Below are positions 4,772 through 33,926 of a DNA stretch of 64,000 nt, in pieces (position 1 is the stretch's first letter; the number at the start of each line of letters is the position of its first letter). The position numbers and the translations under genes were made by a program. The notes under the pieces are model-generated. The model was not told the DNA's origin. It saw only the letters and a program-made list of their open reading frames with translations, and ran no database searches. The DNA comes from Armatimonadota bacterium (lineage in GTDB: Bacteria; Armatimonadota; UBA5829; DSUL01): positions 1,540,162-1,604,161 of the forward strand of contig AP024674.1 in assembly GCA_025998755.1 (NCBI GenBank), read 5' to 3'.

Positions 4772-4808
4772 TTCCGCCCACAATCAAGCAGACACGGAGG
4801 ACACGGCC

Positions 4809-11017: not shown

Positions 11018-12199
11018 ATGGAAGCTTCCGCAATGAATGCGACAGCAGCAGTTGCCGAGAGCGCGGACTGGAGCGCAAAAGCATCCAGGATCGCAACGGC
11101 AGCAGCCATCCTCGGAGGAGCAGGGTCACTGGCGGGATTCTTCCTTGGCGGCGAAGAGTTCTGGTGGATGCTGCTGGTCAACTTCCTGTTCTGGGGAGGA
11201 ATTGCGCAGGGAATGATCCTGTGGGCAGCTATTCTGCGCACCGCGCAGGCCAGTTGGGCGGCCGGAGTCAATCGGATCGCCCGCGCCTCCATCCACTTCC
11301 TCCCGGTGTCTCTGTTGATGTTTGCCCTGCTGTACTTCGGTCGCGAGCACTGGCTCACCTGGCTCCACCATCCGGTCCCGGCCAAGGCGAAGTGGCTGAA
11401 CGAGGGATTTTTCTTCGCGCGAAACGCAGTGGCGCTGCTGATTCTGACCGGCCTGAGCTACTGGTTTGTGCTGGCCTACCGCAAGCTGGAGCCCGGCGAA
11501 GGCCGGGAGCCTTCGGATGGGACGGCCTCCTTCATCAACCGGCTGGCCATTGCGCTAGTACTGGCCTACGTGGTGATCTACACGCTGCTGGCATTCGATA
11601 TGGTGATGTCGCTGGAGCCTCACTGGTACAGCACGCTGTTCGGCGCCTACTACTTCGTGGGCAACCAGTATGCCGCAATGGCGGCCATCATCATCGTGGC
11701 CACTCTGGCCGGAAAGCCGGCAGGACTGGAAAAATATCTGGACTCCCACCGCTTCGCGGACATGGGCAACCTGATGATGGGCTTCGGCATCCTGTTTTCG
11801 GGCTTCGTGTTCGCTCAGTGGCTGACGATCTGGTACGGGAACATCCCGGAGGAGGCCACCTACCTGCATCATAGGCTCTACCTGTTCCCCTGGCGTGGAG
11901 TGGGCATCGCCATTCTGGTGGTTCTTATGTTCGGTCCGTTCCTGCTGCTGCAGAGCAGGGCGGCCAAGGCCACACCGCGCCGGCTGGTGTGGATCGCCGC
12001 GTTGGTGTTTGTTGGACTCTGGCTGGAGCGCTGGATGCTGGTGGTTCCCGCGCTGGCGCCGGACAGGCTGGCCGGGTTGGGATTTCTGTGCTGGAGCATC
12101 CCTGTCTTCTGCGCGGGGGCGTTGGCGCTTGCGATCATATCCTACCTGCGGTCAGAGCCGCGGGTCTCCGGGCTGGATCTGGCCCTGAAAGCAGAGTAG
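11018..12199 (+). CDS. actF: alternative complex III subunit ActF (membrane)
   Basis: 393-residue, roughly ten-helix integral membrane protein resembling the ActF subunit of the quinol:cytochrome c/oxygen-chain complex called alternative complex III. Landmarks are EEFWWMLLVNFLFWGGIAQG, FLPVSLLMFALLYFGREHW, FDMVMSLEPHWYSTLFGAYY and GNIPEEATYLHHR. In many genomes actF follows actA-E; here it leads the cluster, directly before sco and the oxidase genes, with the other act genes about 7 kb downstream. An internal ATG at 11033 is an alternative start. The ribosome site is weak (GGACGTAAAGACGA). Confidence 0.85.
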   Translation: MEASAMNATAAVAESADWSAKASRIATAAAILGGAGSLAGFFLGGEEFWWMLLVNFLFWGGIAQGMILWAAILRTAQASWAAGVNRIARASIHFLPVSLLMFALLYFGREHWLTWLHHPVPAKAKWLNEGFFFARNAVALLILTGLSYWFVLAYRKLEPGEGREPSDGTASFINRLAIALVLAYVVIYTLLAFDMVMSLEPHWYSTLFGAYYFVGNQYAAMAAIIIVATLAGKPAGLEKYLDSHRFADMGNLMMGFGILFSGFVFAQWLTIWYGNIPEEATYLHHRLYLFPWRGVGIAILVVLMFGPFLLLQSRAAKATPRRLVWIAALVFVGLWLERWMLVVPALAPDRLAGLGFLCWSIPVFCAGALALAIISYLRSEPRVSGLDLALKAE

Positions 12200-12220: not shown

Positions 12221-13069
12221 GTGGAGAGAACCGGAAAGACAAGCGGGATATGGAGTTTGGCAGCAGGAGCTCTGCTCGCCTGCGCAGCGTTCATCGGCAA
12301 TCCGGCGGCGGCGCGGGTGACGGATGCCGCCGGAGAGTCCTCTCCGAAGGTGGGCATTGTGGAGCACCTCGGCGACTCACTGCCTGCGGATTTGACCTTC
12401 CGCGACGAGAACGGCCGCGAGGTCCGGCTGGGCGACCTGGTGGACCGTCCCACCGTGCTCTCGCTGGTCTATTACAGTTGCCCGGGGATCTGCACGCCGC
12501 TCCTCACCGGCCTTGCCGAGGTCCTGAATCTGATGGATTTGCGCCCGGGCAAGGATTACCGGGTTGTCACAATCAGCTTCGATCCCTCCGACACGCCGAA
12601 GCTGGCGGCGGAGAAGAAGAAGAACTACCTGCACCTGATAGACAGGCGGGAGTTTCCCGAGGAGGCGTGGAGCTTCCTGACTGGCAACCAGGAGCAGATC
12701 GACGCCATCGCGGAGGCTGTTGGCTTCCGGTACGAGAAACAGGGCAAGGAGTTCGTACACGCGGCAGCCATCTATGTGATCAGCCCCAAGGGCAAGATCG
12801 TGCGCTACCTCTACGGCACCTCGTTCCTGCCGCTGGACCTGAAGCTGGCTCTGACCGAGGCGTCCCAGGGGCGGGTTGGGCCAACAATCAACAAGATCCT
12901 GCTGTTCTGTTTCAACTACGACCCGGACGGCCGCAAGTACGTTTTGAACACAACCCGGATCGCCGGCACCGCAGTTCTGCTGACGGCGCTTGCGTTCGTG
13001 ATCTACCTCGGCGCCAGCTCGCGCCGCAGAGCCGCTGCTGACGGAGAAAGCAACGACCATGGCAGTTGA
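12221..13069 (+). CDS. SCO1/SenC-type copper chaperone for CuA assembly
   Basis: 282 residues; a thioredoxin-like, copper-binding assembly factor that matures the CuA site of cytochrome c oxidase subunit II on the outer face of the membrane. An N-terminal export signal (residues 10-32) is followed by VYYSCPGICTPLL, the CxxxC copper site, and later FVHAAAIYVISPKGKI with the third ligand His. A C-terminal membrane helix (TRIAGTAVLLTALAFVIYLG) adds a second anchor. The start is GTG. It overlaps ctaD by 11 bases, fitting oxidase assembly. Confidence 0.93.
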   Translation: MERTGKTSGIWSLAAGALLACAAFIGNPAAARVTDAAGESSPKVGIVEHLGDSLPADLTFRDENGREVRLGDLVDRPTVLSLVYYSCPGICTPLLTGLAEVLNLMDLRPGKDYRVVTISFDPSDTPKLAAEKKKNYLHLIDRREFPEEAWSFLTGNQEQIDAIAEAVGFRYEKQGKEFVHAAAIYVISPKGKIVRYLYGTSFLPLDLKLALTEASQGRVGPTINKILLFCFNYDPDGRKYVLNTTRIAGTAVLLTALAFVIYLGASSRRRAAADGESNDHGS

Positions 13070-14690
13070 CGTCGCGGGCAGGTCGCATAGCCTGCCGGAC
13101 TATCTGAATCATAGAGCCGCATATTCGGGGATCCTGAGCTGGGTGCTCTCCACCGATCACAAGAGGATCGGGGTGATGTATCTGGTCTCCCAGCTGACGT
13201 TCTTCCTGGTGGGGGTGGCGCTGGGATTCGTGATGAGGCTGGAGATGTTGACCCCCGGCCCCACGGTGATCTCCAACCCGGCCGTCTACAACGCCATCTT
13301 CACCGTGCACGGCGTGATCATGATCTTCCTGTTCGTGATTCCGGGGCTGATCGCGTCGTTTGGGAACTTTTTCCTGCCCATCATGATCGGGGCGAAGGAC
13401 GTGGCATTCCCGTTCCTGAACCTGCTGAGCTGGTGGCTATTCATCATCGGTGCGTTCGTGGCCATCGCCTCGCTCTTCACCGGTGGGCTGCCGGATACGG
13501 GATGGACCTTCTACGTCCCCTACTCCATCAAGACGAACACCAACACGACACTGGCGCTTTTCGGTGTGTTCATCCTCGGCTTCAGCTCCATCCTGACGGG
13601 GTTGAACTTCGTCACCACGGTGCACCAGATGCGGGCTCCCGGCATGCGCTGGGGACGCATGCCGCTGTTCGTTTGGGCCATCTACGCCACCAGCTGGATA
13701 CAGATCCTGGCCACCCCCATCCTGGGGATCACTCTGCTGCTGGTGATGCTGGAGAGGGTTCTCGGCATCGGGGTGTTCGATCCGGCCCGGGGAGGCGATC
13801 CGGTGCTGTATCAGCACCTGTTCTGGATCTACTCGCACCCGGCCGTCTATATCATGATCCTGCCGGGTATGGGGGCCATCTCCGAGATCATCCCGACGTT
13901 TGCGAGGCGGACGATCTTCGGCTACAAGTTCATTGCAGGATCCAGTCTGGCGATCGCTCTATTCGGGTCGCTGGTCTGGGCACACCACATGTTCACGGCC
14001 GGAATCGGCGACAAGGCAGCCGTGATCTTCTCCCTTCTGACCTTCCTGGTGGCGGTGCCAAGCGCCATCAAGGTGTTCAACTGGGTCTCGACGCTCTACC
14101 GGGGCTCCATTGAGCTGCGTCCGCCGATGCTGTTCGCTCTGGCGTTTATCTTCCTGTTCAGCATCGGGGGCTTCACGGGTCTGATGCAGGGGGCTCTGGC
14201 GCTGGACATCCACCTTCACGACACCTATTTCGTGGTGGCCCACTTCCACTACGTGATGTTCGGCGGGACTGGCTTCGCTCTGTTCGGGGCGCTCCACTAC
14301 TGGTTCCCCAAGATGTTCGGGCGGATGTATAGCGAGAAGATCGCGACCATCGCCTGGGCGCTGATGTTTGTGGGCTTCAACGTGCTCTACTTCACCATGC
14401 TGCTGATGGGGTGGCTGGGGATGCCGCGGCGCTACTATGACTACCTGCCGCAGTATCAGAGCTGGCACGTGGTGGCGACGGTGGGCTCCTGGATCCTGAT
14501 CGCCGGCGTGCTCTTGATGGTGGGCAACCTTCTGGTGGCTCTGAAGCGTGGAGAGAAGGCACCGGACAACCCGTGGGGTGGCGTGACGCCCGAGTGGAGC
14601 ACATCCTCCCCGCCGCCAGTGGAGAACTTCGAGAAGACTCCAACGTTCAGCGGCGGTCCCTATGACTTCCCAACGGAGGTTGCCAGGTGA
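13059..14690 (+). CDS. ctaD: cytochrome c oxidase subunit I, A2-type
   Basis: Catalytic heme-copper subunit that reduces oxygen to water and pumps protons; 543 residues, 12 or more helices. Heme ligands lie in FTVHGVIMIF and HDTYFVVAHFHYV, CuB ligands in YSHPAVY (about residue 260) and WAHHMF (about 309). The helix VI sequence IYSHPAVYIMILPG has Tyr-Ser in place of the A1-type Glu, placing it in the A2 group. It opens with SWVLSTDHKRIGVMYL, typical of subunit I. It overlaps sco at its start and ctaE at its end. Confidence 0.97.
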   Translation: MAVDVAGRSHSLPDYLNHRAAYSGILSWVLSTDHKRIGVMYLVSQLTFFLVGVALGFVMRLEMLTPGPTVISNPAVYNAIFTVHGVIMIFLFVIPGLIASFGNFFLPIMIGAKDVAFPFLNLLSWWLFIIGAFVAIASLFTGGLPDTGWTFYVPYSIKTNTNTTLALFGVFILGFSSILTGLNFVTTVHQMRAPGMRWGRMPLFVWAIYATSWIQILATPILGITLLLVMLERVLGIGVFDPARGGDPVLYQHLFWIYSHPAVYIMILPGMGAISEIIPTFARRTIFGYKFIAGSSLAIALFGSLVWAHHMFTAGIGDKAAVIFSLLTFLVAVPSAIKVFNWVSTLYRGSIELRPPMLFALAFIFLFSIGGFTGLMQGALALDIHLHDTYFVVAHFHYVMFGGTGFALFGALHYWFPKMFGRMYSEKIATIAWALMFVGFNVLYFTMLLMGWLGMPRRYYDYLPQYQSWHVVATVGSWILIAGVLLMVGNLLVALKRGEKAPDNPWGGVTPEWSTSSPPPVENFEKTPTFSGGPYDFPTEVAR

Positions 14691-15499
14691 GCCAGACCAC
14701 AACGCCCGGTCCCGGAGGCCAGGCGGTTCTCCGCGAGGCCGCGCACCACTTCGACTATACCGGCCGCAAGCTGGGGATGTGGCTGTTCCTTTTCACGGAG
14801 CTGCTGCTGTTCGGCGGGCTTTTCATCGCCTACGCCATTTACCGGCACGTGAACTTTGCAGACTTCCACGTTGCCGCCAAAGATCTGGACCTGGTGCTGG
14901 GGACTATCAACACGGTCATCCTGCTGACCAGCAGTCTCACGATGGCGCTTTCCATCACGGCGATGCAGAAAGGCAACCGGAAGCTGGCCCTGTGGCTGGT
15001 GGTCCTGACGGTGCTCTGCGGGCTGGCGTTTCTCATCATCAAGTATTTCGAGTGGACGGCCAAGATCTCGCACGGGATCTACCCGGCCTCGCCGGAGTTG
15101 ATGAAGCTCCCCCCGGGAGAAGTCCGGTTTTTCGGCCTCTACTATGCGATGACCGGCCTGCACGGGCTGCACGTGCTGATCGGGATGGTTTTGCTGATCG
15201 TCATGGCCGTGCTTATCGCCCGCAAACCGTTCCGCGTGCACTCGTTCCGGCTGGACGATGCGGATGAGGCGATGGCCGGAGCAAGGCCGGCCATCGTGGA
15301 CGGCGAGGGCAAGCCGCTCTGGAAGGGCGGCATCATTGACGAGAACGTGGAGCAGGTCAGCGTGGTGGTGCGGCTGAAACCAGGGCCGCAGACCATTCAG
15401 CCATCGGACTACGTAAGCCTGGAGAATGCTGGGCTTTACTGGCACCTGGTGGATATCATCTGGATCTTCCTGTTCCCCTTGTTTTATCTGATCACCTGA
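14687..15499 (+). CDS. ctaE: cytochrome c oxidase subunit III
   Basis: 270-residue membrane subunit that stabilises subunit I and proton uptake. Landmarks are GMWLFLFTELLLFGGLFIAY, ALWLVVLTVLCGLAFLIIKY followed by FEW, YYAMTGLHGLHVLIGM and LYWHLVDIIWIFLFPLFY. Between the last two helices there is a polar stretch of about 65 residues (roughly 185-245) that is longer than usual. It starts at GTG, overlapping ctaD by 4 bases (GTGA). Confidence 0.95.
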   Translation: MSQTTTPGPGGQAVLREAAHHFDYTGRKLGMWLFLFTELLLFGGLFIAYAIYRHVNFADFHVAAKDLDLVLGTINTVILLTSSLTMALSITAMQKGNRKLALWLVVLTVLCGLAFLIIKYFEWTAKISHGIYPASPELMKLPPGEVRFFGLYYAMTGLHGLHVLIGMVLLIVMAVLIARKPFRVHSFRLDDADEAMAGARPAIVDGEGKPLWKGGIIDENVEQVSVVVRLKPGPQTIQPSDYVSLENAGLYWHLVDIIWIFLFPLFYLIT

Positions 15500-15822: not shown

Positions 15823-16941
15823 ATGGGAACGGCAGCCTCCAACACTGCAAGCCACGTAGACCAGGTTATGATGGTGATCCTGGGGATCAGCGTGGTGCTG
15901 TTCGTCGGGATCATGGCGACGATGGTCTTCTTCGTCATCAAGTACAGCCGCAAGAGACAGAAGACCGTCGCAAACATCTCTCATCACACCGGTCTGGAGC
16001 TGGTGTGGACCATCATCCCGGTCCTCATCGTGCTGGTGATGTTCTGGTACGGGTTTGTCGGCTACAGGGTGATGCGCACGGGACCGGACGACGCGCTGGC
16101 GGTGACGATCACCGGCCGGATGTGGTCCTGGCTCTACACTTACGAGAACGGCATCCAGGCCACCGACATGCTACGCATCCCGGCCGGTGAGCCGGTGAAG
16201 CTGGTGATCACCAGCGCGGACGTCATCCACAGTTTCTATGTGCCTGCCTTCCGGGTGAAATGGGACGCGATTCCCGGGCGCAAGACGCATTACTTCATCA
16301 CAGCGGAAAAGACCGGCACATTCGACATCCTTTGCGCTGAGTATTGCGGGCTGCAGCACGCCTATATGCTCTCCAAGGTGCAGGTGATGCCCAAAAAGGA
16401 GTTCGAGAAGTGGTACGCCCAGAATGCGCCTCAGCAGCAGAAGGGCGAACCGGCCCCGGCGGCCGCCGCGGTCACGCAGGGTGCTCCTGCGCAGGCACAG
16501 GCGCCGGCGGCTCCCACCCAGCAGGTATCCACCACACCAGGAGCAAATATGGCCGCGCAGCCACAGACAACCTCCGCAATGCCTGCCGCCAAGACCACCT
16601 CGCCGCCTGCGGCTTCCAATGCTGCGGCATCATCCAATGATGCGGCCCTGGTTGCCGAGGGCGAGAAACTGATGGCGCGCTACGCGTGCTCTTCCTGCCA
16701 TTCGTCGGATGGATCGCGGATTGTCGGGCCGACTTTCAAGGGGCTTTACGGCAGCTCTGTGACTGTGCTGGTGGACGGGAAGGAACGCACGGTCCGAGCC
16801 GACGAAGCATATATTGAGCGGTCCATCCGAGAGCCGAACGCTGAGATAGTGAAAGGCTATCAGCCGCTGATGCCGGGGCAGCCCAACCTGACGGCGGAAG
16901 AAGTGAAGGCGATGATCGCCTACATTAAGTCGCTGAAATGA
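15823..16941 (+). CDS. ctaC: cytochrome c oxidase subunit II fused to cytochrome c
   Basis: Accepts electrons from soluble or membrane cytochrome c and passes them to subunit I. Residues 1-85 hold two membrane helices, and the cupredoxin domain has VIHSF and the full CuA set CAEYCGLQHAYM (first Cys about residue 170). An Ala/Pro/Gln-rich linker (about 205-270) leads to a C-terminal monoheme cytochrome c with CSSCH at 289-293 and axial Met in PLMPGQP. The cytochrome domain is strikingly like that of the protein at 17901-19253. No lipobox is evident; the N-terminus is uncleaved or weakly signal-like. Confidence 0.96.
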   Translation: MGTAASNTASHVDQVMMVILGISVVLFVGIMATMVFFVIKYSRKRQKTVANISHHTGLELVWTIIPVLIVLVMFWYGFVGYRVMRTGPDDALAVTITGRMWSWLYTYENGIQATDMLRIPAGEPVKLVITSADVIHSFYVPAFRVKWDAIPGRKTHYFITAEKTGTFDILCAEYCGLQHAYMLSKVQVMPKKEFEKWYAQNAPQQQKGEPAPAAAAVTQGAPAQAQAPAAPTQQVSTTPGANMAAQPQTTSAMPAAKTTSPPAASNAAASSNDAALVAEGEKLMARYACSSCHSSDGSRIVGPTFKGLYGSSVTVLVDGKERTVRADEAYIERSIREPNAEIVKGYQPLMPGQPNLTAEEVKAMIAYIKSLK

Positions 16942-16957: not shown

Positions 16958-17827
16958 ATGAGGGAACTTCTTCAGGCTCTGCTGGAACTGACCAAGTTCC
17001 GTATCGCGGTCCTGGCCACCCTTTCCACAGCGGCGGGATACATTTTGCGGGCGGAGCGGGTGGACACTGCGTTGCTCCCTGTACTGGCCGGGACTGCTCT
17101 GCTGGGCGGGGGCAGTCTGGCGCTGAACCAGGTGCAGGAACACCGAACGGATGCCCTGATGGAGCGCACACGCAAGCGTCCGATCCCATCCGGCCGGATG
17201 AGCGTAGCGGAAGCCTTCTGGGTATCGATGGGCCTGCTGTTTATGGGTCTGATGATGCTCTGGGGATTTGCAGGCATCCTGCCGCTTGTCCTGGGGGCAG
17301 TCTGTGTGGTTTGGTACAACGGCATCTATACCTATCTGAAAAGGTTGACGCCGTTCGCAGTCATACCGGGATCGGTCATCGGGGCGATCCCACCGGTCAT
17401 TGGCTGGACGGCCGCGGGCGGGCACTTGACCCACCCGGCGATCATCGCCCTGGCGATGTTCTTTTTCGTGTGGCAGGTACCGCACTTCTGGCTGCTGCTG
17501 CGCAAATACGGGAAGGACTACGAGCAGGCGCGGCTCTCATCGCTGACGCAAGTCTTCAGCGAGGAGCAGCTAACACGCTTGACGTTTGTGTGGATCGTGG
17601 CCGCAGCGGTGACGTGTTTGAGTCTGCCGGTGTTTGGGGCGGTCTACTCGAACCTGGCAGCGGCCGGGCTGCTCGGGTGCGCTGTGTGGCTGGTCTGGCG
17701 GGCAAGCGGTCTGCTGTCGGCGGAGGCGGACGAGAGGTCGTTCCGCAGCACGTTTGTCAGCATAAACGTATATGCGCTGCTGGTGATGATCATTGTATCG
17801 GCGGACCGGCTGGTGAAGACCGGTTGA
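16958..17827 (+). CDS. ctaB: protoheme IX farnesyltransferase (heme O synthase)
   Basis: 289-residue membrane prenyltransferase that makes heme O, the precursor of heme A for the oxidase encoded just upstream. Motifs include LALNQVQEHRTDALMERT (the prenyl-diphosphate-binding segment) followed by RKRPIPSGRM, VVWYNGIYTYLKRLTPFAV, PPVIGWTAAGG and WQVPHFWLLLRKYGKDY. About eight hydrophobic helices. It starts 16 bases after ctaC. No ctaA (heme A synthase) is in the window. Confidence 0.95.
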   Translation: MRELLQALLELTKFRIAVLATLSTAAGYILRAERVDTALLPVLAGTALLGGGSLALNQVQEHRTDALMERTRKRPIPSGRMSVAEAFWVSMGLLFMGLMMLWGFAGILPLVLGAVCVVWYNGIYTYLKRLTPFAVIPGSVIGAIPPVIGWTAAGGHLTHPAIIALAMFFFVWQVPHFWLLLRKYGKDYEQARLSSLTQVFSEEQLTRLTFVWIVAAAVTCLSLPVFGAVYSNLAAAGLLGCAVWLVWRASGLLSAEADERSFRSTFVSINVYALLVMIIVSADRLVKTG

Positions 17828-17900: not shown

Positions 17901-19253
17901 ATGGAGTTCGTAAACAATCTGCTGTTCCAGCCGACTGTCACGCATCTGGCGGCATCCAAGTATTTGCTGGTGCTGACCGCGTTTGTGCATTTCGCATACA
18001 TCGGCTACGTCCTTGGAACCACGCTCTTCTCTGTGTTCTTCAACATCGTGGACCGGGATACCCCCAGCCACGACGCCCGCACACTTTCGGAGTATCTGGC
18101 AGGGCTGGCTGCCTCGAACAAGGGATTGATGATCTATCTGGGTGTCCTGCCTGTAATCGCGGCGGCCATCCTCTATGCCCAGATTTTGTATGCGACGCAT
18201 CAGCTTACGACGGCCGGATTCGTGGGCGGGGCGGTCATCGCTCCGGTGGCGTTTATTCTGCTGTCGTTCTACCGCTCTTCTTTTCGCTTCCGCGAGGTGA
18301 ACTATCCCCTGCATATTCTGCTGGGGGTTGCGGCGCTCGGGGCGTTGTTTACGGCTTACTTCATCATCTGCAGCGGCGTCAGCCTGAGCCTGGACCCTGA
18401 GAAGTGGCCGTTCATCCGGAACCCCGCCGAGTTCGTCATCTTCTCGTGGAACAACATTGCGCGCTTCGTCCTGTTCATCGGTGTGTCGCTGGCGATTACC
18501 GGGACCTCCGTGCTCTTCCTTTACTTCAGGCCAGAGGCGGCCCGGGAGAAAGAGGAGTCCTACAATCGGCTGGTGCGCAATTTCGCGTTGGGGCTTTCTC
18601 TGGGCTCGTGCCTGCTGTTGCCGGTGCTGGTGTACTGGAACCTGATCACTATCCCGGATGTGGGCAAGTCCATCCCGATGTATCAGGTCACCGGGCTGGC
18701 GCTGGTAGTGCTGGCGGCCGCGGGGCGCTGGGTGTACGGGCTGCTGGTGAACGCAGACGCGCAGCCGGGATTTCGCCCGCTGGGAGCAGTGCTGGTGTTC
18801 TTCCTTCTGCTGACGGTTGCCGACACAATGACGCGGGAATACGCTTTCCGCGATCACAACTATATGCTTCTGGCTAAGGCCGAGGCTGCGAGGCTGGAAG
18901 AGGAGTCAAAGCGCAGAGCCGCCACCGCGGAGAAGGCCGGGGGAGCTGTTGGAGAGGGAGACCCTGCCCAGGGCGAGAAGCTTGCGCAGCTGAATGGCTG
19001 CGTATCGTGCCACAGCGTGGATGGCTCCGCGAACATCGGCCCCACGTGGAAGGGGCTGTATGGACATGAGGTGGTGGTGCTGGAGGGCGGCAAGGAGGTA
19101 ACGGTCACGGCGGACGACGCCTACATCGTGCAGTCCATCCGGGATCCCAACTCGCAGGTGGTGAAAGGTTTCCAGGCGATCATGCCAGCGCAGCCGACGA
19201 TGTCCGACCAAGATATCGCGCACATCATCGCCTACATCAAGACCCTCAAGTAG
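17901..19253 (+). CDS. multi-pass membrane protein with C-terminal monoheme cytochrome c
   Basis: 450 residues. Residues 1-310 contain about eight hydrophobic helices with His15, His30, His100 and His138 near or in helices, which could bind heme b. A charged helix (320-345, KAEAARLEEESKRRA) leads to a cytochrome c domain: CVSCH at 367-371 and axial Met in AIMPAQP (Met428). That domain matches the one on CtaC closely (GPTWKGLYG versus GPTFKGLYG, AYIVQSIRDPN versus AYIERSIREPN, IAYIKTLK versus IAYIKSLK). It sits between ctaB and actA where monoheme ActE might be expected. The membrane part is not assigned to a family. I infer an electron-transfer link in the act/cta chain. Confidence 0.7.
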   Translation: MEFVNNLLFQPTVTHLAASKYLLVLTAFVHFAYIGYVLGTTLFSVFFNIVDRDTPSHDARTLSEYLAGLAASNKGLMIYLGVLPVIAAAILYAQILYATHQLTTAGFVGGAVIAPVAFILLSFYRSSFRFREVNYPLHILLGVAALGALFTAYFIICSGVSLSLDPEKWPFIRNPAEFVIFSWNNIARFVLFIGVSLAITGTSVLFLYFRPEAAREKEESYNRLVRNFALGLSLGSCLLLPVLVYWNLITIPDVGKSIPMYQVTGLALVVLAAAGRWVYGLLVNADAQPGFRPLGAVLVFFLLLTVADTMTREYAFRDHNYMLLAKAEAARLEEESKRRAATAEKAGGAVGEGDPAQGEKLAQLNGCVSCHSVDGSANIGPTWKGLYGHEVVVLEGGKEVTVTADDAYIVQSIRDPNSQVVKGFQAIMPAQPTMSDQDIAHIIAYIKTLK

Positions 19254-19276: not shown

Positions 19277-19354
19277 ATGGCCGATCGTAATGCCGCGAGC
19301 CGCAGTATGAATATGCGCATTCCAGGGAAAGGGATGGGCCAGGAGATATGCTGA
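19277..19354 (+). CDS. possible 25-codon leader ORF overlapping the actA start
   Basis: ATG 19277 opens a 25-codon frame (MADRNAASRSMNMRIPGKGM and five more residues) ending at TGA 19352-19354, just inside the actA start ATG 19348. AAAGGAG lies about 20 bases upstream, which is far. The AGGAG before actA is only 2 bases from its ATG, so translation into actA may depend on ribosomes ending this frame. It may equally be chance. Confidence 0.25.
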   Translation: MADRNAASRSMNMRIPGKGMGQEIC

Positions 19355-19860
19355 AGCGTCTGGGCGCGTGGGCGGTTTACGCCTATTTCGCGCTGTTCTT
19401 AGCCATCATCGTGGCTCTCGGCAGTTACTGGAATTACCTGTACGCAACGCCCGAGCAGCCGATCGCCTTTCCACACAAGACGCACGTGCAGGTGGTGAAC
19501 CTGAAGTGCGAGAACTGCCACCTCTACACGGACAAAGGGCGGCAGGCCGGCATTCCCGCCGTCCAGAAATGCATGGAATGCCATCAGGCGGTCAAGACGG
19601 AAAGCCCGGAGATCCAGAAGCTGACTAAATACTGGGAGGAGAACCGGGAGATCGAGTGGGCGCAGATCCACAAGGTGCCGGACTATGTTTACTTCTCGCA
19701 CAAGAGGCACGTGACGAAGGGCATTCCCTGTGAGACCTGCCACGGGCAGATCGGATACGAGATGGTGGTCCACAAGGCAAAATCGCTCTCGATGGGCTTC
19801 TGCGTGACCTGCCACAGGCAGAACAACGCGCCAGTGGACTGCTACACCTGCCACAAATAA
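19348..19860 (+). CDS. actA: alternative complex III pentaheme cytochrome c subunit ActA
   Basis: 170 residues with one N-terminal membrane helix (about 8-30, VYAYFALFLAIIVALGSYW) and five CxxCH heme sites at residues 54, 75, 128, 152 and 165 (CENCH, CMECH, CETCH, CVTCH, CYTCH). Spaced His residues such as FPHKTH and FSHKRH are likely distal ligands. This is the pentaheme pattern of ActA, the subunit that collects electrons from the complex on the periplasmic side. It is followed after 43 bases by actB. It is shorter than some ActA proteins but has all five hemes. Confidence 0.92.
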   Translation: MLKRLGAWAVYAYFALFLAIIVALGSYWNYLYATPEQPIAFPHKTHVQVVNLKCENCHLYTDKGRQAGIPAVQKCMECHQAVKTESPEIQKLTKYWEENREIEWAQIHKVPDYVYFSHKRHVTKGIPCETCHGQIGYEMVVHKAKSLSMGFCVTCHRQNNAPVDCYTCHK

Positions 19861-19903: not shown

Positions 19904-22771
19904 ATGAATCGTCGCGATTTCCTGAAGGCGGTGGGCGTCGTCTCCGGCGGCGCAGTGGTGGCCGGATGCGAACCCAAGAAGGGCACATACAAGGCCATCG
20001 CGCCGCTCTTCCCCCTACCGGAGGGCAGAGTGCCCGGCGAGCCGTACTACATCCGCACGACCTGCACGGAGTGTCCGGCAGGCTGCGGAGTAACGGCGCG
20101 TGTGATAGACGGAGTGCCCATCAAGCTTGAGGGAACGCCGGGGCACCCGGTGAACGATGGGAGCCTCTGTATCCGCGGTCAGGCGGGCATCACCCGCCTA
20201 TACAATCCCAGGCGCATCCAGAAGCCCATGCGCCGCAAGGGAGCAGGCGCCTGGGAGGAGATCGGGTGGGAGCAGGCCTACAGTGATATCATCGCCGCCG
20301 TCAAGGCCTCCCGGCAGGAGGGCAAGAAGAACCTTTACCTTTCCGGACGCACCTCCGGGATGCTGGGGCGTCTGATTGACGAGTTCTGCCAGAAAACTGG
20401 ATTCGAGCGGCTTCCCGAATACGAAGTGTTCGACTACGCCGCGCTGCGGCGCGCCAACGAGCTGGTGTTCGGTATCCGGGAAGTCCCTTCCTATAACATT
20501 GCGGCCAGCGACTTTTTGCTGACCATTGGAGCGGACGTGCTGCAGACGTTCGGCAGCCCGGTCTCCCAGCAGAAGCAGATCGCACGGGCGAAGCGCGAGA
20601 ACGGGCTGAAGTGGGTTCACGCAGAGCCGCACGTTTCGCTGGAAGGATTGCAGGCGCATCGCCGGGTGGTGCTCAAGCCTGGCAGCGAGCCGCATCTGCT
20701 GGCTTATCTCCTGGCGGCCTACGGCAAGTCTGTGCCCGGGGCCCCTGCCGCCGACAGGCCTTCCGTCAGCCGGGCAACGGGGGTGGCTGAAGACGTCCTC
20801 CGCGACCTGGCGGAGCAGTTGCGGGCGGCGGCGCGGCCACTGGTAATCGCGGGCGGCGTCTCTCTGGCGGGGGCGAACGGGCTCGCAACGGCTGTGCTGT
20901 GCGCGCAGCTCCAGTCAGCGGGGGGGATGTTGGCACGGCTGGACTTCAGCCGGTCTCTGGAAATGGGCCGTGTCGGGACCCTGAAGGATCTGCAGGCCCT
21001 TTCGGAGAGGCTGGACAAGGGACAGACCGGCGTGCTCTTCATCGCGCGGACCGATCCGGCGGGGACCGCGCCGGAGGCGATGCGGTTCGCGGAGAGGATG
21101 GAAAAAGCATCCTTCCGGGTCGCTTTCGCCGATGCCATCTCCGCCACCACGGAGAAATGTGACCTGGTGCTTCCGCTGTCGCACGCGCTGGAGTCGGCGG
21201 GGGACGTGGCGCCGCGGAAGGGGCTGCGCGGCCTGGTGCAGCCGGTCATCGAGAAGCAGCTACACGATACGAAGACCGAGGGCGACATTCTGCTGGATTT
21301 GCTGGACGAGATGACTGCGGAGCGCGAGTTCCGGTCGTTCGCGGCGTTCCTGAAGCAGCAGTGGCGGGAAGCCCACGGTCCCGGCTATGAGCCGCAGTTC
21401 TCGGAGATGGGATACCTTGAGGCGATCGCCAAGCCGGCCACTCCTGCGGCCAGGCCCGTTCCTCCGCAGGTCTTGAAGACCGTTACGATCCCGGACGGCC
21501 CCACCCTCGTTCTGACACCGTCCGTCCGCTACTTCGATGGCCGCAGCCGGAATCTGAAGCTTCTAAACGAGATCCCGGACCCACTGACCACCATCACCTA
21601 CGGCGAGTGGGTTTCGGTTTCAGAAGAAGACGCGCGGGATCTGAAACTGCGCGACGGTGACGAACTGGAGCTTTCTGCCGATGGCTGGACGCGGGTGTTG
21701 CCCGCGAAGATCCAGAAGCGCCTTCCGGCAGGGGTGATGATGGTGGACCGGGGCGTCGCTGGAGCGTGCCCCACAAGAGTTGACCCGGCATCCGGCGGGG
21801 AAATCGCCTGGCTGGCGGGTGTTCGCGTCCGGCGGACAGGTGGGGCGGTAAGGTTGCCCGTGATGAGCGGCTCTCCGTCGCAGCACGGGCGAGGGATCAT
21901 CCCCGACCCTGTGCACCTCAAGAAAGATAACGGCCACGGTGGCGATCACGAAAAAGGGCACGGCGACGGGCATCACAACCTGACGCTTTACCCGGAGCAG
22001 GAGTACAAAGACTACCGCTGGGCGATGGCCATTGACCTGGACGCCTGCAATGCGTGCGGAGCCTGCGTGGCAGCCTGCTACGTTGAGAACAACATAGGCA
22101 TGACCGGCCGCGATCAGCATCTGCGCGGACGGGAGATGAGCTGGATCCGCATCGAGCCCTTCTACGACCGCGAAGACGGAGCGGATTTCCTGCCAATGCT
22201 CTGCCAGCAGTGCGACGCGGCCCCGTGCGAGGCGGTTTGTCCGGTATTCGCGACCTACCATAACCCCGAGGGACTGAACGCGCAGATATACAACCGCTGC
22301 GTGGGAACACGCTACTGCGCCAACAACTGCCCCTACAAGGTGCGCCGGTTCAACTGGTTCGACTATCGCCCGCGGCGCGACCCACAGCTGCGGCAGCCTC
22401 ACGGGGACTTCACGGACTCCATCGAGATGCCGATGGACTGGGTCTCGAATCCGCTGGTGTCGCTGCGCAAGCGGGGCGTCATGGAGAAATGCACATTCTG
22501 CGTGCAGCGCATCCGTGAAGCTCGCGATCACGCAAAGGACAAGGGCCGCAAGATCCAGGACGGCGAGGTGATTCCCGCCTGCGCGCAGACCTGTCCTTCG
22601 GAGGCGATCATCTTCGGCAACAGTCTGGACCCGGACAGCCGCGTCTCCAAGATCATTCACCGGGGAACCCACAGGGTCTTCGAGGAGCTCGGCACGCGGC
22701 CGGCCGTGCACTATGTGAACGGCCCGATCCCTGACGCGCATTTCAAGGACTCGGAGAGGGGAGAGGCATAG
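19904..22771 (+). CDS. actB: alternative complex III subunit ActB (molybdopterin-like plus iron-sulfur domains)
   Basis: 955 residues. The N-terminus (RRDFLKAVGVVSGGAVVAGC) resembles a Tat signal ending in a lipobox. Residues 50-690 are a molybdopterin-oxidoreductase-like domain, as in ActB proteins, which normally lack a molybdenum cofactor. Residues 700-930 are a ferredoxin-like domain with four cluster motifs (CNACGACVAAC, CQQCDAAPCEAVCP, CVGTRYCANNCP, CTFCVQRI with CAQTCP). Unlike the ActB sequences I know, it keeps a full N-terminal motif C54-x2-C57-x3-C61-x27-C89 (CTECPAGCG ... GSLCIRGQ), which could hold another 4Fe-4S cluster. Gene order actA-B-C-D supports the call. Confidence 0.9.
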   Translation: MNRRDFLKAVGVVSGGAVVAGCEPKKGTYKAIAPLFPLPEGRVPGEPYYIRTTCTECPAGCGVTARVIDGVPIKLEGTPGHPVNDGSLCIRGQAGITRLYNPRRIQKPMRRKGAGAWEEIGWEQAYSDIIAAVKASRQEGKKNLYLSGRTSGMLGRLIDEFCQKTGFERLPEYEVFDYAALRRANELVFGIREVPSYNIAASDFLLTIGADVLQTFGSPVSQQKQIARAKRENGLKWVHAEPHVSLEGLQAHRRVVLKPGSEPHLLAYLLAAYGKSVPGAPAADRPSVSRATGVAEDVLRDLAEQLRAAARPLVIAGGVSLAGANGLATAVLCAQLQSAGGMLARLDFSRSLEMGRVGTLKDLQALSERLDKGQTGVLFIARTDPAGTAPEAMRFAERMEKASFRVAFADAISATTEKCDLVLPLSHALESAGDVAPRKGLRGLVQPVIEKQLHDTKTEGDILLDLLDEMTAEREFRSFAAFLKQQWREAHGPGYEPQFSEMGYLEAIAKPATPAARPVPPQVLKTVTIPDGPTLVLTPSVRYFDGRSRNLKLLNEIPDPLTTITYGEWVSVSEEDARDLKLRDGDELELSADGWTRVLPAKIQKRLPAGVMMVDRGVAGACPTRVDPASGGEIAWLAGVRVRRTGGAVRLPVMSGSPSQHGRGIIPDPVHLKKDNGHGGDHEKGHGDGHHNLTLYPEQEYKDYRWAMAIDLDACNACGACVAACYVENNIGMTGRDQHLRGREMSWIRIEPFYDREDGADFLPMLCQQCDAAPCEAVCPVFATYHNPEGLNAQIYNRCVGTRYCANNCPYKVRRFNWFDYRPRRDPQLRQPHGDFTDSIEMPMDWVSNPLVSLRKRGVMEKCTFCVQRIREARDHAKDKGRKIQDGEVIPACAQTCPSEAIIFGNSLDPDSRVSKIIHRGTHRVFEELGTRPAVHYVNGPIPDAHFKDSERGEA

Positions 22772-22775
22772 GACT

Positions 22776-24098
22776 GTGACAGAACAGGCGATCGAGCAAC
22801 ACCACAGACTGGAGCGGGACATCCTGGCCGCGATGAGCCAGCCGACAGGGTGGTACTGGGTGGCTCTGGGAGTATCCATAGCAGCGTTCCTGATGGGAAT
22901 GGGGCTGTGGCTGTATATGATCCTCACCGGGATGGGGGTTGCCGGCATCAACAACCCCGTCGGCTGGGGCGTGTTCATCGTGGACTTCGTGTTCTGGGTG
23001 GGTATCGCCCACTCGGGAACGCTTATCTCCGCGGTGCTCTTTCTTTTCCGGGCCCGGTTCCGGAGCCGGTTCAACCGCGCGGCAGAGGCGATGACCATCT
23101 TTGCGGTCATGACAGCGGGGCTGTTCCCGCTGATCCACCTGGGACGGGTGTGGTTCGCCTACTGGCTGTTCCCCTACCCCAACAATCATCTGATATGGCC
23201 CAACTTCAAGAGCCCGCTGGTCTGGGACGTTTTCGCCGTGAGCACCTACCTCACCGTCAGCGCGGTATTCTGGTATGTTGGGCTCATTCCCGACCTGGCG
23301 ATTGCACGGCGGCATGCCAAGAGCAAGATCCAGATGTGGGCATATCGGGTGTTCTCGCTCGGATGGGTGGGATCGGTGCAGCAGTGGAAGCACTACAACA
23401 AGCTGTACGGTTTGCTGGCCTGCTTCGCCACTCCGCTGGTGGTGTCCGTGCACTCGGTGGTGAGCTGGGACTTCGCGATGTCCGTCATTCCGGGATGGCA
23501 CACCACCATCTTTGCCCCGTATTTCGTGGCGGGAGCCATCCTTTCGGGCTGCGCGATGGTGATCACGCTAATGGTCCCGATGCGCAAGATCTTCCGGCTG
23601 GAACAGATCATCACCGTGAAGCACTTCGAGGGCATCGCCCAGATGCTGCTTCTGACATCGCTCATCGTGACCTACTCCTATATCGTGGAGTATGCCATCG
23701 CCTTCTACAGCGGGAACACCTACGAAATCTCACACTTCGTCTACCGCCTGCTGGGAGCTGAGGAACCAGGTCACTACCGTTATGCCTACTGGGTGATGGT
23801 GGCCTGCAACTCGGTGATACCGCTTCTGTTGTTTTTCCGAAAAGTTCGGACCAGAATCCCTGCGCTGTTTGTGATGAGTCTGTTCGTCAACGTGGGGATG
23901 TGGCTGGAGCGGTTCATCATTATCGTGACGTCCCTGGCCCGGGACTTCGATCCGTATGCGTGGGGGCTCTACAAGCCCAGCCTCGTGGAGGTGGGGATCA
24001 CGATTGGCAGCTTCGGACTGTTCTTCACCCTCTTTCTGCTGTTCTGCAAGACGCTCCCGGTGCTGGCCATCACGGAGATCAAGGAGGAGTACACCTGA
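22776..24098 (+). CDS. actC: alternative complex III quinol-binding subunit ActC (NrfD-like)
   Basis: 440-residue NrfD/PsrC-like membrane protein of about ten helices, thought to bind menaquinol and pass electrons to ActB. Landmarks are VGWGVFIVDFVFWVGIAHSG, FPLIHLGRVWFAYWLFPYPN, SPLVWDVFAVSTYLTVSAVF and LFVNVGMWLERFIIIVTSL. The start is GTG at 22776, 4 bases after the actB stop. The stop overlaps the actD start (TGATG). Confidence 0.93.
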   Translation: MTEQAIEQHHRLERDILAAMSQPTGWYWVALGVSIAAFLMGMGLWLYMILTGMGVAGINNPVGWGVFIVDFVFWVGIAHSGTLISAVLFLFRARFRSRFNRAAEAMTIFAVMTAGLFPLIHLGRVWFAYWLFPYPNNHLIWPNFKSPLVWDVFAVSTYLTVSAVFWYVGLIPDLAIARRHAKSKIQMWAYRVFSLGWVGSVQQWKHYNKLYGLLACFATPLVVSVHSVVSWDFAMSVIPGWHTTIFAPYFVAGAILSGCAMVITLMVPMRKIFRLEQIITVKHFEGIAQMLLLTSLIVTYSYIVEYAIAFYSGNTYEISHFVYRLLGAEEPGHYRYAYWVMVACNSVIPLLLFFRKVRTRIPALFVMSLFVNVGMWLERFIIIVTSLARDFDPYAWGLYKPSLVEVGITIGSFGLFFTLFLLFCKTLPVLAITEIKEEYT

Positions 24099-24526
24099 TG
24101 CAGGAATATCGTTTTGAAGACGAGCACTCCTACCTTCAAAAGCTGCAGGAGCTGGTGGACTCCGGCGTCCCAACGCGAAGGATCCACGCGTTCAGCCCGA
24201 TCCCCGTGCCGGCCGCCGAACAGATCCTGCGGGAGAAGCCCACGTTCGTCCGGGTATTCGCCATTGCGGGGGCTCTGGCGGGGATGCTGGCCGGGTTTGC
24301 GCTGTGCATCTACACCGTGCTGCGCTATCCCTTGATCGTTAGCGGCAAACCCGTGGTGGCCGTCCTGCCGTTCGTTGTGATCGCCTTCGAACTGACCATC
24401 CTGCTGGGGTCGCTCGCAACGTTCGCGGGATTCCTGTTGAACGCGCGGCTTCCTTATATTCCTCGCATCTTCAACCCGGACGAATACGGGACGCATTTCA
24501 CCATTCTGGTGGAGGAAGACCGTTAG
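24098..24526 (+). CDS. actD: alternative complex III subunit ActD
   Basis: 142 residues with two membrane helices (about 52-75 and 84-110) and the sequence RIHAFSPIPVPAAEQILREK, FVVIAFELTILLGSLATFAG and NPDEYGTHFTILVEED, the recognisable core of ActD (DUF3341 type). The ATG at 24098 overlaps the actC stop by one base and is preceded by AAGGAGG. No actE or second actF follows. The act series ends here. Confidence 0.92.
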   Translation: MQEYRFEDEHSYLQKLQELVDSGVPTRRIHAFSPIPVPAAEQILREKPTFVRVFAIAGALAGMLAGFALCIYTVLRYPLIVSGKPVVAVLPFVVIAFELTILLGSLATFAGFLLNARLPYIPRIFNPDEYGTHFTILVEEDR

Positions 24527-24614: not shown

Positions 24615-26252
24615 GTGACATCTGCGGGCGGTCTCATCGAGGGCGGCGCTTCCGCAGCGCCTTCCCGCATTTCGGCTGACAACATACTACCTGTCTCCAA
24701 GCCGCCGGCGCGGACGCTTCTGCACGCCAATCTGCTGCAGGCCGATCCGGAAACGCGCCTGGCGCTCACCGTGCTGCAAGGGCTGGTGAACCGCGAGCGC
24801 CCGCAAATCCTTTTGACCCAGGATCCCGGCTGGCACGGCCCGCATGGCATTCCGAAGTGGATCGAGGGACTCCGGGAGCGGGGCTACCGGATTGAGGAGG
24901 TGTCCGACCCGCTGGACTTAGTGCAAAGGTTCCGGCATCGGCTAAAGGGAGCCGTCCTCTACGAAGCTGGTCTGGAGTCCAATCCGCTGCGCCTGCACAA
25001 GCTGAACGTATTGACGCTCTACTGTTCGCTGGAATCGGCCCTGCCCATCACCCCGGAGCTGCAGGAGAAACTGGAACTGCCCGTTCTGGTGGACGCGCGG
25101 GGGCGGTTCGACTCACCCGGGGAAGCCTACGAGTGGGCCTATAAAGAATTGTGGCCCCGTGCCAGCCGCAGGGCCGTGGCCTTTCTTGCCCCCCGGCATA
25201 TCGTGCTGCGCGACTACCTGGTGGCGCACCGCATCATGCCCTTCTTCATCAGTCACGGGATGGACCGGGAAGCCGAAGAGATCTGCCTGCGCTTCCTGGA
25301 CGAAGCGGAGCCGAACGCCGCAGTGCTGGGCTGCTGGGGAGGGTACGGCGAGCAGCCTCCGGGGCGCGTGAGCGAGGATAACCTTCAGCGTCTGGCCAGC
25401 CTGCGCGGCAAGTTCGTGGTGGTGACGGACGGATGCTTCAACCTGACTGTCCATTCCGGGCTTGGCTACACCGGCCCGCCCCCGCGCCCGCAGAGACCGG
25501 CCATCAAATCCGAGCCCGGGAAGGTCTATGTGGTCTTCTCCGTGACAGACGGCGACAATCTGCAGTATCTGCAGCAGCACTTCCGCTCACCGCACTGGTG
25601 GGAGGATCCACGGCGGGGAGAAGTTCCCATCGGGTGGTCGCTGAATCCCCTGGCCAGCGTCTTGATGCCGGACGTGATGGAGTTTCTGCAGAAAACCTGC
25701 ACGGAAAACGACGAGTTCTTCTGTTCCACGGCCGGCATGGGGCTGATTGCTCCGGCTCTGTATGCAAAGGATCTCTATGCCGATCCGGCAGGGGTCTACC
25801 GGGACTATTTGAGGATCTCCGGTGAGCTGATGCGCAGGACCGGCCTCGACACGGTCCAGTTGGGCGACACCAGCAACATTCCCTGGACGCGGGCGGATTT
25901 CGCTGACTGGGCGCAGTCCGTTCCCGGGCTGCGGGGCATTCTGGGCGACTACGGCCGAGCCTTCGGCGTTCACCCTGGCAATGCTGCGTTCCTCGTGGCC
26001 GGAGGCATTCCCGTGCTGCGTTCGCTCATCGCTCCGGGAAGGACCGGGCCGGACGAGAATACCGCCAAGGAGCTTGCGGAGGCCATTCGGGCCAACGCAC
26101 CAAAGGAGCGTCCCGGCTTTATGCACGTGTGCCTGGTGAACTGGCATCACTCCCCTTCGACCACAGCGGATGCGGTGAAACTGCTGGGCGAAGAGTTTGT
26201 GCCGGTACTGCCGTCCCAGATGTTCGACCTGCTGAGGCAGCACCTGAAGTGA
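24615..26252 (+). CDS. GxGYxYP-family secreted protein, putative glycoside hydrolase
   Basis: 545 residues from GTG 24615. The sequence matches the two-part GxGYxYP family seen in polysaccharide-degrading bacteria: an N-terminal domain (LLHANLLQADPETRLALTVL, then QGLVNRERPQI) and a C-terminal TIM-barrel-like domain (VYVVFSVTDGDNLQYLQQHF, GWSLNPLASVLMPDV, FVPVLPSQMFDLL). The opening of the preceding frame (LAAALVTSAGGLIEGGASAA) looks like a signal peptide reaching further upstream, but no ATG/GTG/TTG extends it. The catalytic role is not established for the family. Its presence between actD and nuoH is unexpected. Confidence 0.75.
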   Translation: MTSAGGLIEGGASAAPSRISADNILPVSKPPARTLLHANLLQADPETRLALTVLQGLVNRERPQILLTQDPGWHGPHGIPKWIEGLRERGYRIEEVSDPLDLVQRFRHRLKGAVLYEAGLESNPLRLHKLNVLTLYCSLESALPITPELQEKLELPVLVDARGRFDSPGEAYEWAYKELWPRASRRAVAFLAPRHIVLRDYLVAHRIMPFFISHGMDREAEEICLRFLDEAEPNAAVLGCWGGYGEQPPGRVSEDNLQRLASLRGKFVVVTDGCFNLTVHSGLGYTGPPPRPQRPAIKSEPGKVYVVFSVTDGDNLQYLQQHFRSPHWWEDPRRGEVPIGWSLNPLASVLMPDVMEFLQKTCTENDEFFCSTAGMGLIAPALYAKDLYADPAGVYRDYLRISGELMRRTGLDTVQLGDTSNIPWTRADFADWAQSVPGLRGILGDYGRAFGVHPGNAAFLVAGGIPVLRSLIAPGRTGPDENTAKELAEAIRANAPKERPGFMHVCLVNWHHSPSTTADAVKLLGEEFVPVLPSQMFDLLRQHLK

Positions 26253-26400
26253 CCCCGCGCGAAAAGGGTGGCGTTATGGGAGGAATGCCAGTCTTTCGCG
26301 CATAAATAGCTGCTGGCCGCATCGCCGAACGCGACGCGGGGGATGGCGGCCCACTTCTAGGACGGGCAGGGATGCCCGGCCGGCTGGGAAAAGGGTGGCT

Positions 26401-27483
26401 ATGACGTCTGGCACAACGGCCGCACTCTGGCTGCTGGCTCGGGAGCTGGCTGTGGCCGTGGCTGTCCTGACATTTGTCCTGCTGGTCGTGATGTACCCGA
26501 TGATCTGGGGGCTGCGCCGGGTGATGGCAGCCTTCCAGGTGCGCATCGGGCCCAATCGCACAGGCTATCAGGGTCTGCTGCAGACTCCCGCCGACGCCCT
26601 GAAACTGCTGGCCAAGGAAGACATCGTCCCCGCAGCCGCTGACCGATGGCCGTTCATCCTGGCCCCGATCATCGTCTTCGTTCCGGCATTCCTGGTGTAT
26701 GCCGTGATGCCCTTCGGCAAGGGACTGATCCCCACGGACCTGAACGTCGGCATTGTCTACGTGTGCGCGGTGACGGGGATCCCCATCATCGGCATTATGA
26801 TGGCCGGGTGGGCATCCAACAGCAAGTGGTCGCTGCTGGGCGCCTTCCGCGCGGCCGCACAGTTGGTCAGCTATGAGGTTCCTCTTGTGCTCGCCCTGAT
26901 GGTACCCGTGATGCTGGCGGGATCGCTCAGCCTGCAGCAGATCGTGAAGGTCCAGGGCGAGCCGGTCCTGGGCGGACTGCTCTGCGGCTGGTTCATCCTC
27001 AATCCGGTGACCTGGCTTGCGTTTCTGGTTTACTTCATCGCAGGGATCGCTGAGTCGAACATCGTGCCGTTCGACATTATGGAGGCCGAAAGCGAGCTGG
27101 TGGCGGGCTTCAACACGGAGTACTCCGGGATGAAGTTCGCCCTGTTCTTCCTGGAGGAGTTCACGGCGGCTTTCACGCTGGCGGCCATCGCCACAACGCT
27201 GTTCTTCGGCGGGTGGCAGCCTCTCTTTCCCGGGGCTGAGGCGTTCTGGCTGGACAGGCTTTTTGCGGCGGCGGGACTGGCCTTCCCTGAATGGCTTCGG
27301 AGCGCCGCGACGTTCTTCTGGTTCTTCGGCAAGAGCCTGCTGCTCGTGTTTGTGCTGATGTGGATCCGCAGTACGCTGCCCCGCGTCCGGGTGGACCAGC
27401 TGATGAGCTTCGCATGGAAAGGACTGATCCCGGCTGCGTTCGTGAGCCTGACGATCGCCGGGCTGTGGGTGGTGCTGGCGTGA
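26401..27483 (+). CDS. nuoH: NADH-quinone oxidoreductase subunit H
   Basis: Membrane subunit of complex I forming much of the quinone chamber; 360 residues, eight or more helices. Motifs include RIGPNRTGYQGLLQTPADALK, KLLAKEDIVP, EVPLVLALM, NIVPFDIMEAESELVAGFNT followed by EYSGMKFALFFLEEF, and RVDQLMSFAWK. I use ATG 26401, with AAGGG 5 bases upstream; GTG 26395 is too close to that site. It is the first nuo gene here; nuoA-G are not present. The stop overlaps the nuoI GTG. Confidence 0.96.
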   Translation: MTSGTTAALWLLARELAVAVAVLTFVLLVVMYPMIWGLRRVMAAFQVRIGPNRTGYQGLLQTPADALKLLAKEDIVPAAADRWPFILAPIIVFVPAFLVYAVMPFGKGLIPTDLNVGIVYVCAVTGIPIIGIMMAGWASNSKWSLLGAFRAAAQLVSYEVPLVLALMVPVMLAGSLSLQQIVKVQGEPVLGGLLCGWFILNPVTWLAFLVYFIAGIAESNIVPFDIMEAESELVAGFNTEYSGMKFALFFLEEFTAAFTLAAIATTLFFGGWQPLFPGAEAFWLDRLFAAAGLAFPEWLRSAATFFWFFGKSLLLVFVLMWIRSTLPRVRVDQLMSFAWKGLIPAAFVSLTIAGLWVVLA

Positions 27484-28016
27484 GCGTCCTGGGCCAGATA
27501 GCCGACGGCGCGAAGTCCATTCTGAAGGGCCTGCGCGTCACCCTGGGTTATCTCTTCCGGAAGAAGGTGACGCTGCAATACCCGGAGGAACGCCCCAAGC
27601 TGTCTGAGCGCTTCCGCGGCGTCCCGGCGTTGCCGCTAGACCCGGCCACCGGCCGGGACCGGTGCATCGCCTGCTCCGCGTGCGCGCGCGTTTGCCCGGA
27701 CCAGGTCATCACGGTGGTGCCGGAGGTGGGCGAGGATAAAAAGAGGCGTCTGGCGGATATGACGCTGGATGTGGCCGGGTGCATCTTCTGCGGGCTGTGC
27801 GTGGAGGTCTGCCCCACCGGCGCTCTGGTGCTGAGTGACGAATTCGAGCTGGCGCACAGCAGCCGGGAAGACCTGGTGCTGGGACTGGAAAAGCTGCACG
27901 AGATCGGCGGGCAGTTCCCGGCGAAGCCTGCCGAGCCGCAGGAGGGCGCAGAGGGTCAGGGTGAAACTCAGGACACTCCGGCTCCGGCGAAGGGGGGAAA
28001 GGAGCCGGAAGCATGA
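27480..28016 (+). CDS. nuoI: NADH-quinone oxidoreductase subunit I (ferredoxin-like)
   Basis: Peripheral-arm subunit with two 4Fe-4S clusters that hands electrons toward quinone; 178 residues. The two cluster motifs are [12 protein letters not shown] and [12 protein letters not shown]. It starts at GTG 27480, overlapping the nuoH stop by 4 bases (GTGA). The C-terminal 30 residues are a Glu/Gln/Pro-rich tail not needed for the fold. It is the only peripheral-arm gene of complex I in the window. Confidence 0.96.
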
Positions 28017-28516
28017 ACGTAACCTGGGAGCAGGCTGCGTTCCTTGCCTTCGGAGCCCTGACGCTGGCGGCCGCGATGCTGGTGGTGTTCTCGCGGAACC
28101 TGTTCCACGCCGCGCTCTGGCTTGCCGCCACCTTTACGGGCGTGGCTTGCATCTACGTAACCCTGCACGCCGAGTTTGTCGCAATGAGCCAGATGATCGT
28201 CTACGTGGGGGCGGTGGCGGTGTTGATGCTGTTCGCCGTGTTCCTGACGGAAGATGTCGTCGGCCAGAAATCGAGAAGGCTGCGAAGCGCCTGGGTGTTT
28301 GCGCTGCCGGTGGCGGTGGCCATATGCGCCATTCTGCTGCGGTGGTTCAGTGGTTATCCCTGGAAACCTCCCGCGAGCGATCACGCCAAAGACACAGCCG
28401 GGGTCATCGGCATTGCCTTTATACAGCGATACCTGTTCGCCTTCGAGCTGACCTCCATCATCCTCCTAGCGGCGCTCATCGGGGCCATCTTTCTGGCGCG
28501 GGAGGAGAAAGCATGA
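28013..28516 (+). CDS. nuoJ: NADH-quinone oxidoreductase subunit J
   Basis: 167-residue membrane subunit with five helices; family signals are [20 protein letters not shown] and [20 protein letters not shown]. It overlaps nuoI and nuoK by 4 bases each (ATGA), showing tight translational coupling. Confidence 0.95.
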
Positions 28517-28821: not shown

Positions 28822-28831
28822 GGTGCAGGCG

Positions 28832-30808: not shown

Positions 30809-30853
30809 GGGAGGGATCGAGCAGATGACGCTGTGGAAGGATACGGCCGAGTG

Positions 30854-32356: not shown

Positions 32357-32360
32357 GACG

Positions 32361-33908: not shown

Positions 33909-33926
33909 CGCCGGGGAGAAAAGACC

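Follow-up and report, generated by a model that had tools for sequence, protein, structure and literature searches.

A CydA'-like membrane protein fused to a monoheme cytochrome c as the probable replacement of ActE in an alternative complex III-caa3 oxidase gene cluster of Armatimonadota

The window, as we call the whole stretch of 64,000 nucleotides analysed here, belongs to the complete 3.29-Mb genome of a member of the phylum Armatimonadota (G000). It carries a cluster for an alternative complex III (ACIII) and a caa3 oxidase, the genes of which all lie on the forward strand in the order actF-sco-ctaD-ctaE-ctaC-ctaB-X-actA-actB-actC-actD. ActA, ActB, ActC, ActD and ActF are encoded together, as expected of an ACIII. 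X designates an open reading frame of 450 aa that begins with ATG and contains no internal stop codon. The features are listed below with the evidence for each.

11018-12199, + strand: actF-like membrane subunit (29% identity, 3e-23, to ActF of genome G114)
12221-13069, + strand: sco-like copper chaperone (sequence; homologues adjoin caa3 genes in related loci)
13059-14690, + strand: ctaD, oxidase subunit I (sequence; 68-70% to orthologues)
14687-15499, + strand: ctaE, oxidase subunit III (sequence; 47-55% to orthologues)
15823-16941, + strand: ctaC, caa3 subunit II with C-terminal cytochrome c (COX2 7.6e-18, Cytochrom_C 1.9e-9, CoxB TIGR02866 above cut-off)
16958-17827, + strand: ctaB, heme o synthase-like (UbiA 5e-45)
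17901-19253, + strand: X, CydA'-like eight-helix membrane protein with C-terminal monoheme cytochrome c, 450 aa (profiles, AF2, Foldseek)
17901-18851, + strand: membrane domain of X, residues 1-317, cytochrome bd-subunit fold (AF2, Foldseek, hhalign)
18852-18950, + strand: predicted periplasmic spacer of X, residues 318-350, helical extension of TM8 (model secondary structure, loop charges)
18960-19250, + strand: cytochrome c domain of X, residues 354-450, CVSCH at 367-371, caa3 subunit II type (PF00034, 1w2l, CtaC identity)
19348-19860, + strand: actA, five CXXCH (QrcA-like, 3.6e-33)
19904-22771, + strand: actB, molybdopterin-like and Fe-S parts fused (QrcB 1.8e-59, QrcC 9e-56)
22776-24098, + strand: actC, NrfD-like (PF03916 4.7e-25)
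24098-24526, + strand: actD (sequence; 43% to the G002 orthologue; start position)

ctaB ends 73 bp upstream of X and the gene of the pentaheme ActA starts 94 bp downstream, which confirms the position given in an earlier sequence-only reading of this DNA. The actF gene, located directly upstream of sco-ctaD, is divergent and has no Pfam match; a replacement of ActF by X, entertained with one NrfD match in the genome, was ruled out by this gene. The act cluster is separated from the nuo genes by a gene for a GxGYxYP glycoside-hydrolase-like protein (24615-26252, PF14323 7e-40). At 26395-35701, a nuoH-to-nuoN-like run directly after the act-cta cluster is succeeded by a ubiE/menG-like methyltransferase gene (33927-34700) and a polyprenyl diphosphate synthase-like gene. 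Genes for complex I, ACIII, oxidase and quinone synthesis are found side by side in the window. Elsewhere in G000, an NrfH/NrfA-like pair (ammonia-forming nitrite reductase) is encoded at 2226-4081 of locus L035 (G000:C1:1097000-1103000). Locus L036 (G000:C1:2650000-2658000) encodes two successive proteins at 2100-5914, one with 10 CXXCH and a cytochrome b-like membrane part and the next with 20 CXXCH, which together may be a path for extracellular or periplasmic electron transfer. No match to a bc-type cytochrome b was obtained in G000.

The proposal that X is an eight-helix membrane protein with a C-terminal monoheme cytochrome c was borne out by its reading frame, domain match, heme motif and structure model. 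The AF2 model contains eight long helices (residues 13-53, 74-95, 97-130, 135-163, 183-208, 219-250, 258-283 and 292-346). The C-terminal domain is matched by PF00034 (E=1.5e-8, residues 356-450), is of class I with a single CVSCH at residue 367, and has its nearest solved relative in 1w2l, the c domain of a caa3 oxidase (phmmer 6.6e-16). It resembles the CtaC and 1w2l domains in sequence, but sits on a bd-type membrane domain, whereas that of CtaC sits on a CuA domain. Given that the predicted loops carry 11 Lys and Arg residues on the inner and 3 on the outer side, the c domain is predicted to lie outside the membrane. Relatives at the same locus in other genomes share 41, 40 and 27% identity with X over the full length, and X is not a chance open reading frame, since it is conserved at the same place there.

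The sequence-only reading had left the membrane domain without a family, and this holds for Pfam and NCBIfam, neither of which provides one for the first 320 residues, but structure comparison, profiles and a tree now place it with CydA', which is the partner subunit without heme c in OR-N-like CydAA' bd-like complexes. The OR-N groups were reportedly defined by Murali et al. 2021. AF2 modelling with 12 sequences gave a pLDDT of 77 and a pTM of 0.62, and with 26 sequences a pLDDT of 86.6 and a pTM of 0.74. Both models matched CydA and CydB chains in Foldseek with prob 1.00 (targets 7oy2, 9r2g, 7d5i and 6rx4); the better model reached a best E of 1.5e-4 and target TM-scores of up to 0.63. Its two four-helix bundles are the subunit fold of the cytochrome bd superfamily, and in these models the resemblance is clear but distant. 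The domain therefore belongs to a respiratory fold and not to an unrelated family such as a transporter; a Zip match (E 0.17, below the cut-off) was dropped after the fold search. The X family profile matched none of the PDB sequences, and a plasmid search for X yielded no match either.

There is no direct PF01654 match for X, and its homology to canonical CydA runs only through a chain in which CydA' and CydA-c, a CydA-like protein with C-terminal heme c, are the intermediates. In hhalign, the X membrane domain matched CydA' at 98.6% (E=5.4e-16, with an alignment of nearly full length), CydA' matched CydA-c at 97.6% and CydA-c matched canonical CydA at 98.4% (E=7.2e-15). In a tree of 54 membrane domains, the X proteins formed a single clade (100/100) on the CydA' side with a long branch, so that CydA' is the nearest relative by both profile and tree; whether X stands beside or within CydA' is unsure. 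CydA-c was rejected as a direct ancestor, as CydA' scores far better (5e-16 vs. 2e-5; E=2.3e-5 for X against CydA-c), X falls on the CydA' side in the tree and the c domains are dissimilar. X most likely belongs to the cytochrome bd superfamily as a derived form that combines a CydA'-type subunit with a periplasmic monoheme cytochrome c.

Among 291 Armatimonadota genomes, a protein search identified X in five, from three families of this one phylum, and a contig scan found two loci only, both in genomes also reached by the protein search. Besides G000, close relatives with heme c are encoded in G058 (Armatimonadetes bacterium CG2_30_59_28, by locus L005), G002 and G064, and a fragment at a contig end in G001. 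The survey of the ctaB-X-actA neighbourhood revealed an identical order, ctaC-ctaB-X-actA-actB-actC, in all four readable loci, each with X beside actA. A profile that includes more distant hits recovered a wider family in 60 of the 291 genomes. Members inspected outside the X clade have about 370 aa and no heme c, and adjoin CydA-c (PF01654 and Cytochrome_CBB3), with Rieske and cytochrome b genes intervening in many cases. The row CydA'-Rieske-cytochrome b-CydA-c occurs in many Armatimonadota (L089-L096, e.g. L092:6171-10257) and resembles a bc complex joined to a bd-like oxidase, and the CydA-c/CydA' pair alone is present in L074, L078 and L080. Likened by arrangement, the Armatimonadota CydA'/CydA-c pair resembles the OR-N CydAA' bd-like oxidases (PMC12342949, PMC10839748).

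The absence of ActE from the actABCD run, already noted from the sequence, was confirmed and extends to the whole of the complete G000 genome; as actF is present, ActE is the only subunit lacking. Above the cut-offs of PF00034 and PF13442, only CtaC, X and a diheme MauG/CCP-like protein were detected in G000. A profile built from five ActE proteins (A4) had matches in none of the five X genomes, two of which are less than 90% complete (G001 69%, G058 89%), vs. all nine tested ACIII genomes without X, none of them used in building the profile; these 5 + 9 genomes are a non-random choice, and the counts are uncorrected for kinship. The best ActE match adjoins an actC gene in eight of the nine, and in G028 it contains an in-frame TAG. 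Other Armatimonadota ACIII loci show the order actA-B-C-D-actE-actF-sco-ctaC-D-E or related ones, with ActE as a monoheme lipoprotein, and relatives that possess caa3 and an ActE-bearing ACIII do not carry X. In L161, L162 and L163, ACIII clusters are joined to genes for a COX1-family protein (PF00115 5.5e-79) and a FixO/diheme protein, not to caa3 genes. ActC is present in 180 of the 291 genomes, and the X genomes form a single clade in the ActC tree (100/99), which suggests that ActE was exchanged for X probably in one event, so the reciprocal pattern of X and ActE rests on one ACIII clade and five genomes.

The missing ActE profile matches in the X genomes and the constant position of X in ACIII-caa3 clusters, with ctaB on one side and actA on the other, lend comparative support to the earlier suggestion of an ActE stand-in. 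X most likely replaces ActE, and we consider it probable, on these genomic patterns, that a CydA'-type recruit serves as the membrane-tethered heme-c subunit of an ACIII-caa3 supercomplex. Like ActE, X has one heme c, is encoded in the act cluster and would presumably relay electrons from ActA. It differs in sequence family and anchoring: ActE is a lipoprotein without a membrane domain, whereas X has eight helices, lacks an N-terminal lipobox Cys, fails the ActE profile and carries c domains of other types.

Electrons that ACIII draws from menaquinol leave ActA for either ActE or the oxidase itself, and the complex has been purified together with aa3 or caa3 oxidases (PMC8552683). We infer that X is a physical member of such a complex, with an electron path and a docking role as follows. 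ActABCDF would oxidise menaquinol, and the five hemes of ActA would pass electrons to the heme c of X, which would be held above the membrane on the helical arm that extends from TM8. From there they would reach the caa3 oxidase by way of the CtaC c domain and CuA. The membrane part of X, with its eight helices, would act as an anchor and as a docking surface between ACIII and the oxidase, in place of the lipid anchor of ActE. The loss of ActE need not require a substitute, judging from F. johnsoniae (PMC8552683), and this counts against a replacement.

The nature of the cytochrome c module bears on the place of X in this path. Compared with the c domain of CtaC from the respective genome, that of X is 57% identical in G000 and 70% in G002, two members of one GTDB family, and is of the CtaC type there. 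G058 and G064 have another type, which is shorter and 48% identical between the two. This latter pair was separated in the c-domain tree (100/100), which left the G000/G002 pair unresolved, while the membrane domains of G000 and G002 pair with each other (100/86). The simplest reading of these sequences is that the ancestor shared by G000 and G002 underwent a c-domain exchange between X and the adjacent ctaC, and the two c-domain types on the same membrane domain suggest that the module is exchangeable.

The CtaC-type domain in two genomes fits X in the role of a direct partner and counts in favour of the replacement. X could instead belong to the caa3 oxidase as an accessory subunit, where it would be an additional tethered cytochrome c that feeds CuA while ACIII uses ActA directly; the c domain type fits this too, X adjoins ctaB, and ActA may pass electrons directly to aa3 without ActE (PMC8552683). 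However, X is confined to the ActE-less ACIII clade and is missing from relatives in which caa3 coexists with an ActE-bearing ACIII, and we regard this role as rather unlikely, although in a tight supercomplex it nearly merges with the replacement of ActE. A carrier at a branch point from ACIII to a different periplasmic acceptor, a role speculated for ActE itself (PMC8552683), or an independent membrane-anchored cytochrome c is hard to reconcile with the four readable loci, where X is strictly linked to act as well as cta genes, and seems improbable.

Of the canonical heme ligands of cytochrome bd, X retains only His30. Catalytic CydA of E. coli is characterized by the heme ligands His19, His186, Met393 and Glu445 and by the GRQPW motif. 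His30 of X aligns with His19 of E. coli CydA, His24 of CydA-c and His30 of CydA', and the other hallmarks are absent: TM5 of X contains no His to match His186, TM3 no acidic residue to match Glu99 and Glu107, and the end of TM8 lacks a conserved Arg/Glu pair. A CydA-like partner, as encoded alongside CydA', is missing from the X loci. The PF01654 search yielded a single canonical CydA at 758320 in G000, none in G002 and none above the cut-off in G058. Since the ligands except His30 are lost and no CydA-like partner is found in the locus, a role as terminal oxidase is unlikely from the sequence. A catalytic bd-type oxygen reductase subunit that gives the cluster a second oxidase is thus very hard to credit despite the bd fold, the CydA-like partners of the wider family and the OR-N5 CydAA' genes downstream of Nitrospirales ACIII clusters (PMC12342949), as the cluster already has a caa3 oxidase.

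The sequence-only reading had further proposed heme b binding by His15, His30, His100 and His138. This is weakly supported: His30 alone occupies a known ligand position, X has none of the other canonical bd ligands, and His100 varies (1/4 among the four X proteins). His15 and His30 are invariant and His138 occurs in 3/4; His15 is not invariant in CydA', so that only His30 is common to the wider family. In the predicted topology, His15 and His30 face the periplasm and His138 the cytoplasm, and His30 and His138 are therefore unlikely to share one heme. It is a doubtful but conceivable extension of the ActE replacement that X still binds heme b at His30 and has its own redox path or quinol site. 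This ACIII would then be chimeric, with a one-time subunit of a bd oxidase carrying electrons between membrane and periplasmic heme c within the ACIII-caa3 supercomplex.

With CydA', X shares the eight-helix bd-subunit fold, the G..P and PExW motifs and the helix-1 His, but it differs in the acquired cytochrome c at its C-terminus, in the absence of a CydA partner from the locus and in its pairing with ACIII and a heme-copper oxidase. Clusters of bd-like proteins with ACIII are known from Nitrospirota (PMC12342949, PMC9040806), and so are ACIIIs that lack some subunits (PMC12342949). OR-N5 of Nitrospirales (PMC12342949) and TO_3/TO_4 of Ca. Manganitrophaceae (PMC9040806) are likewise bd-family proteins encoded with ACIII or complex III components; compared by description, these are proposed terminal oxidases, whereas the cluster of X lacks ActE and has caa3, with X as its single CydA'-like subunit. 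Among the papers searched, we found none that describes a CydA'-type subunit with a fused cytochrome c in the place of ActE.

If the proposed replacement is true, a redox subunit of a major respiratory complex was replaced non-orthologously from a different oxidase superfamily, and a CydA'-type subunit functions without its CydA partner. If X also binds heme b, a former bd-oxidase subunit would be a redox part inside the ACIII-caa3 supercomplex. The replacement would suggest a new wiring of ACIII to the oxidase, and the X clade would be a natural test of the purpose of ActE, which was left open by the deletion work in F. johnsoniae (PMC8552683).
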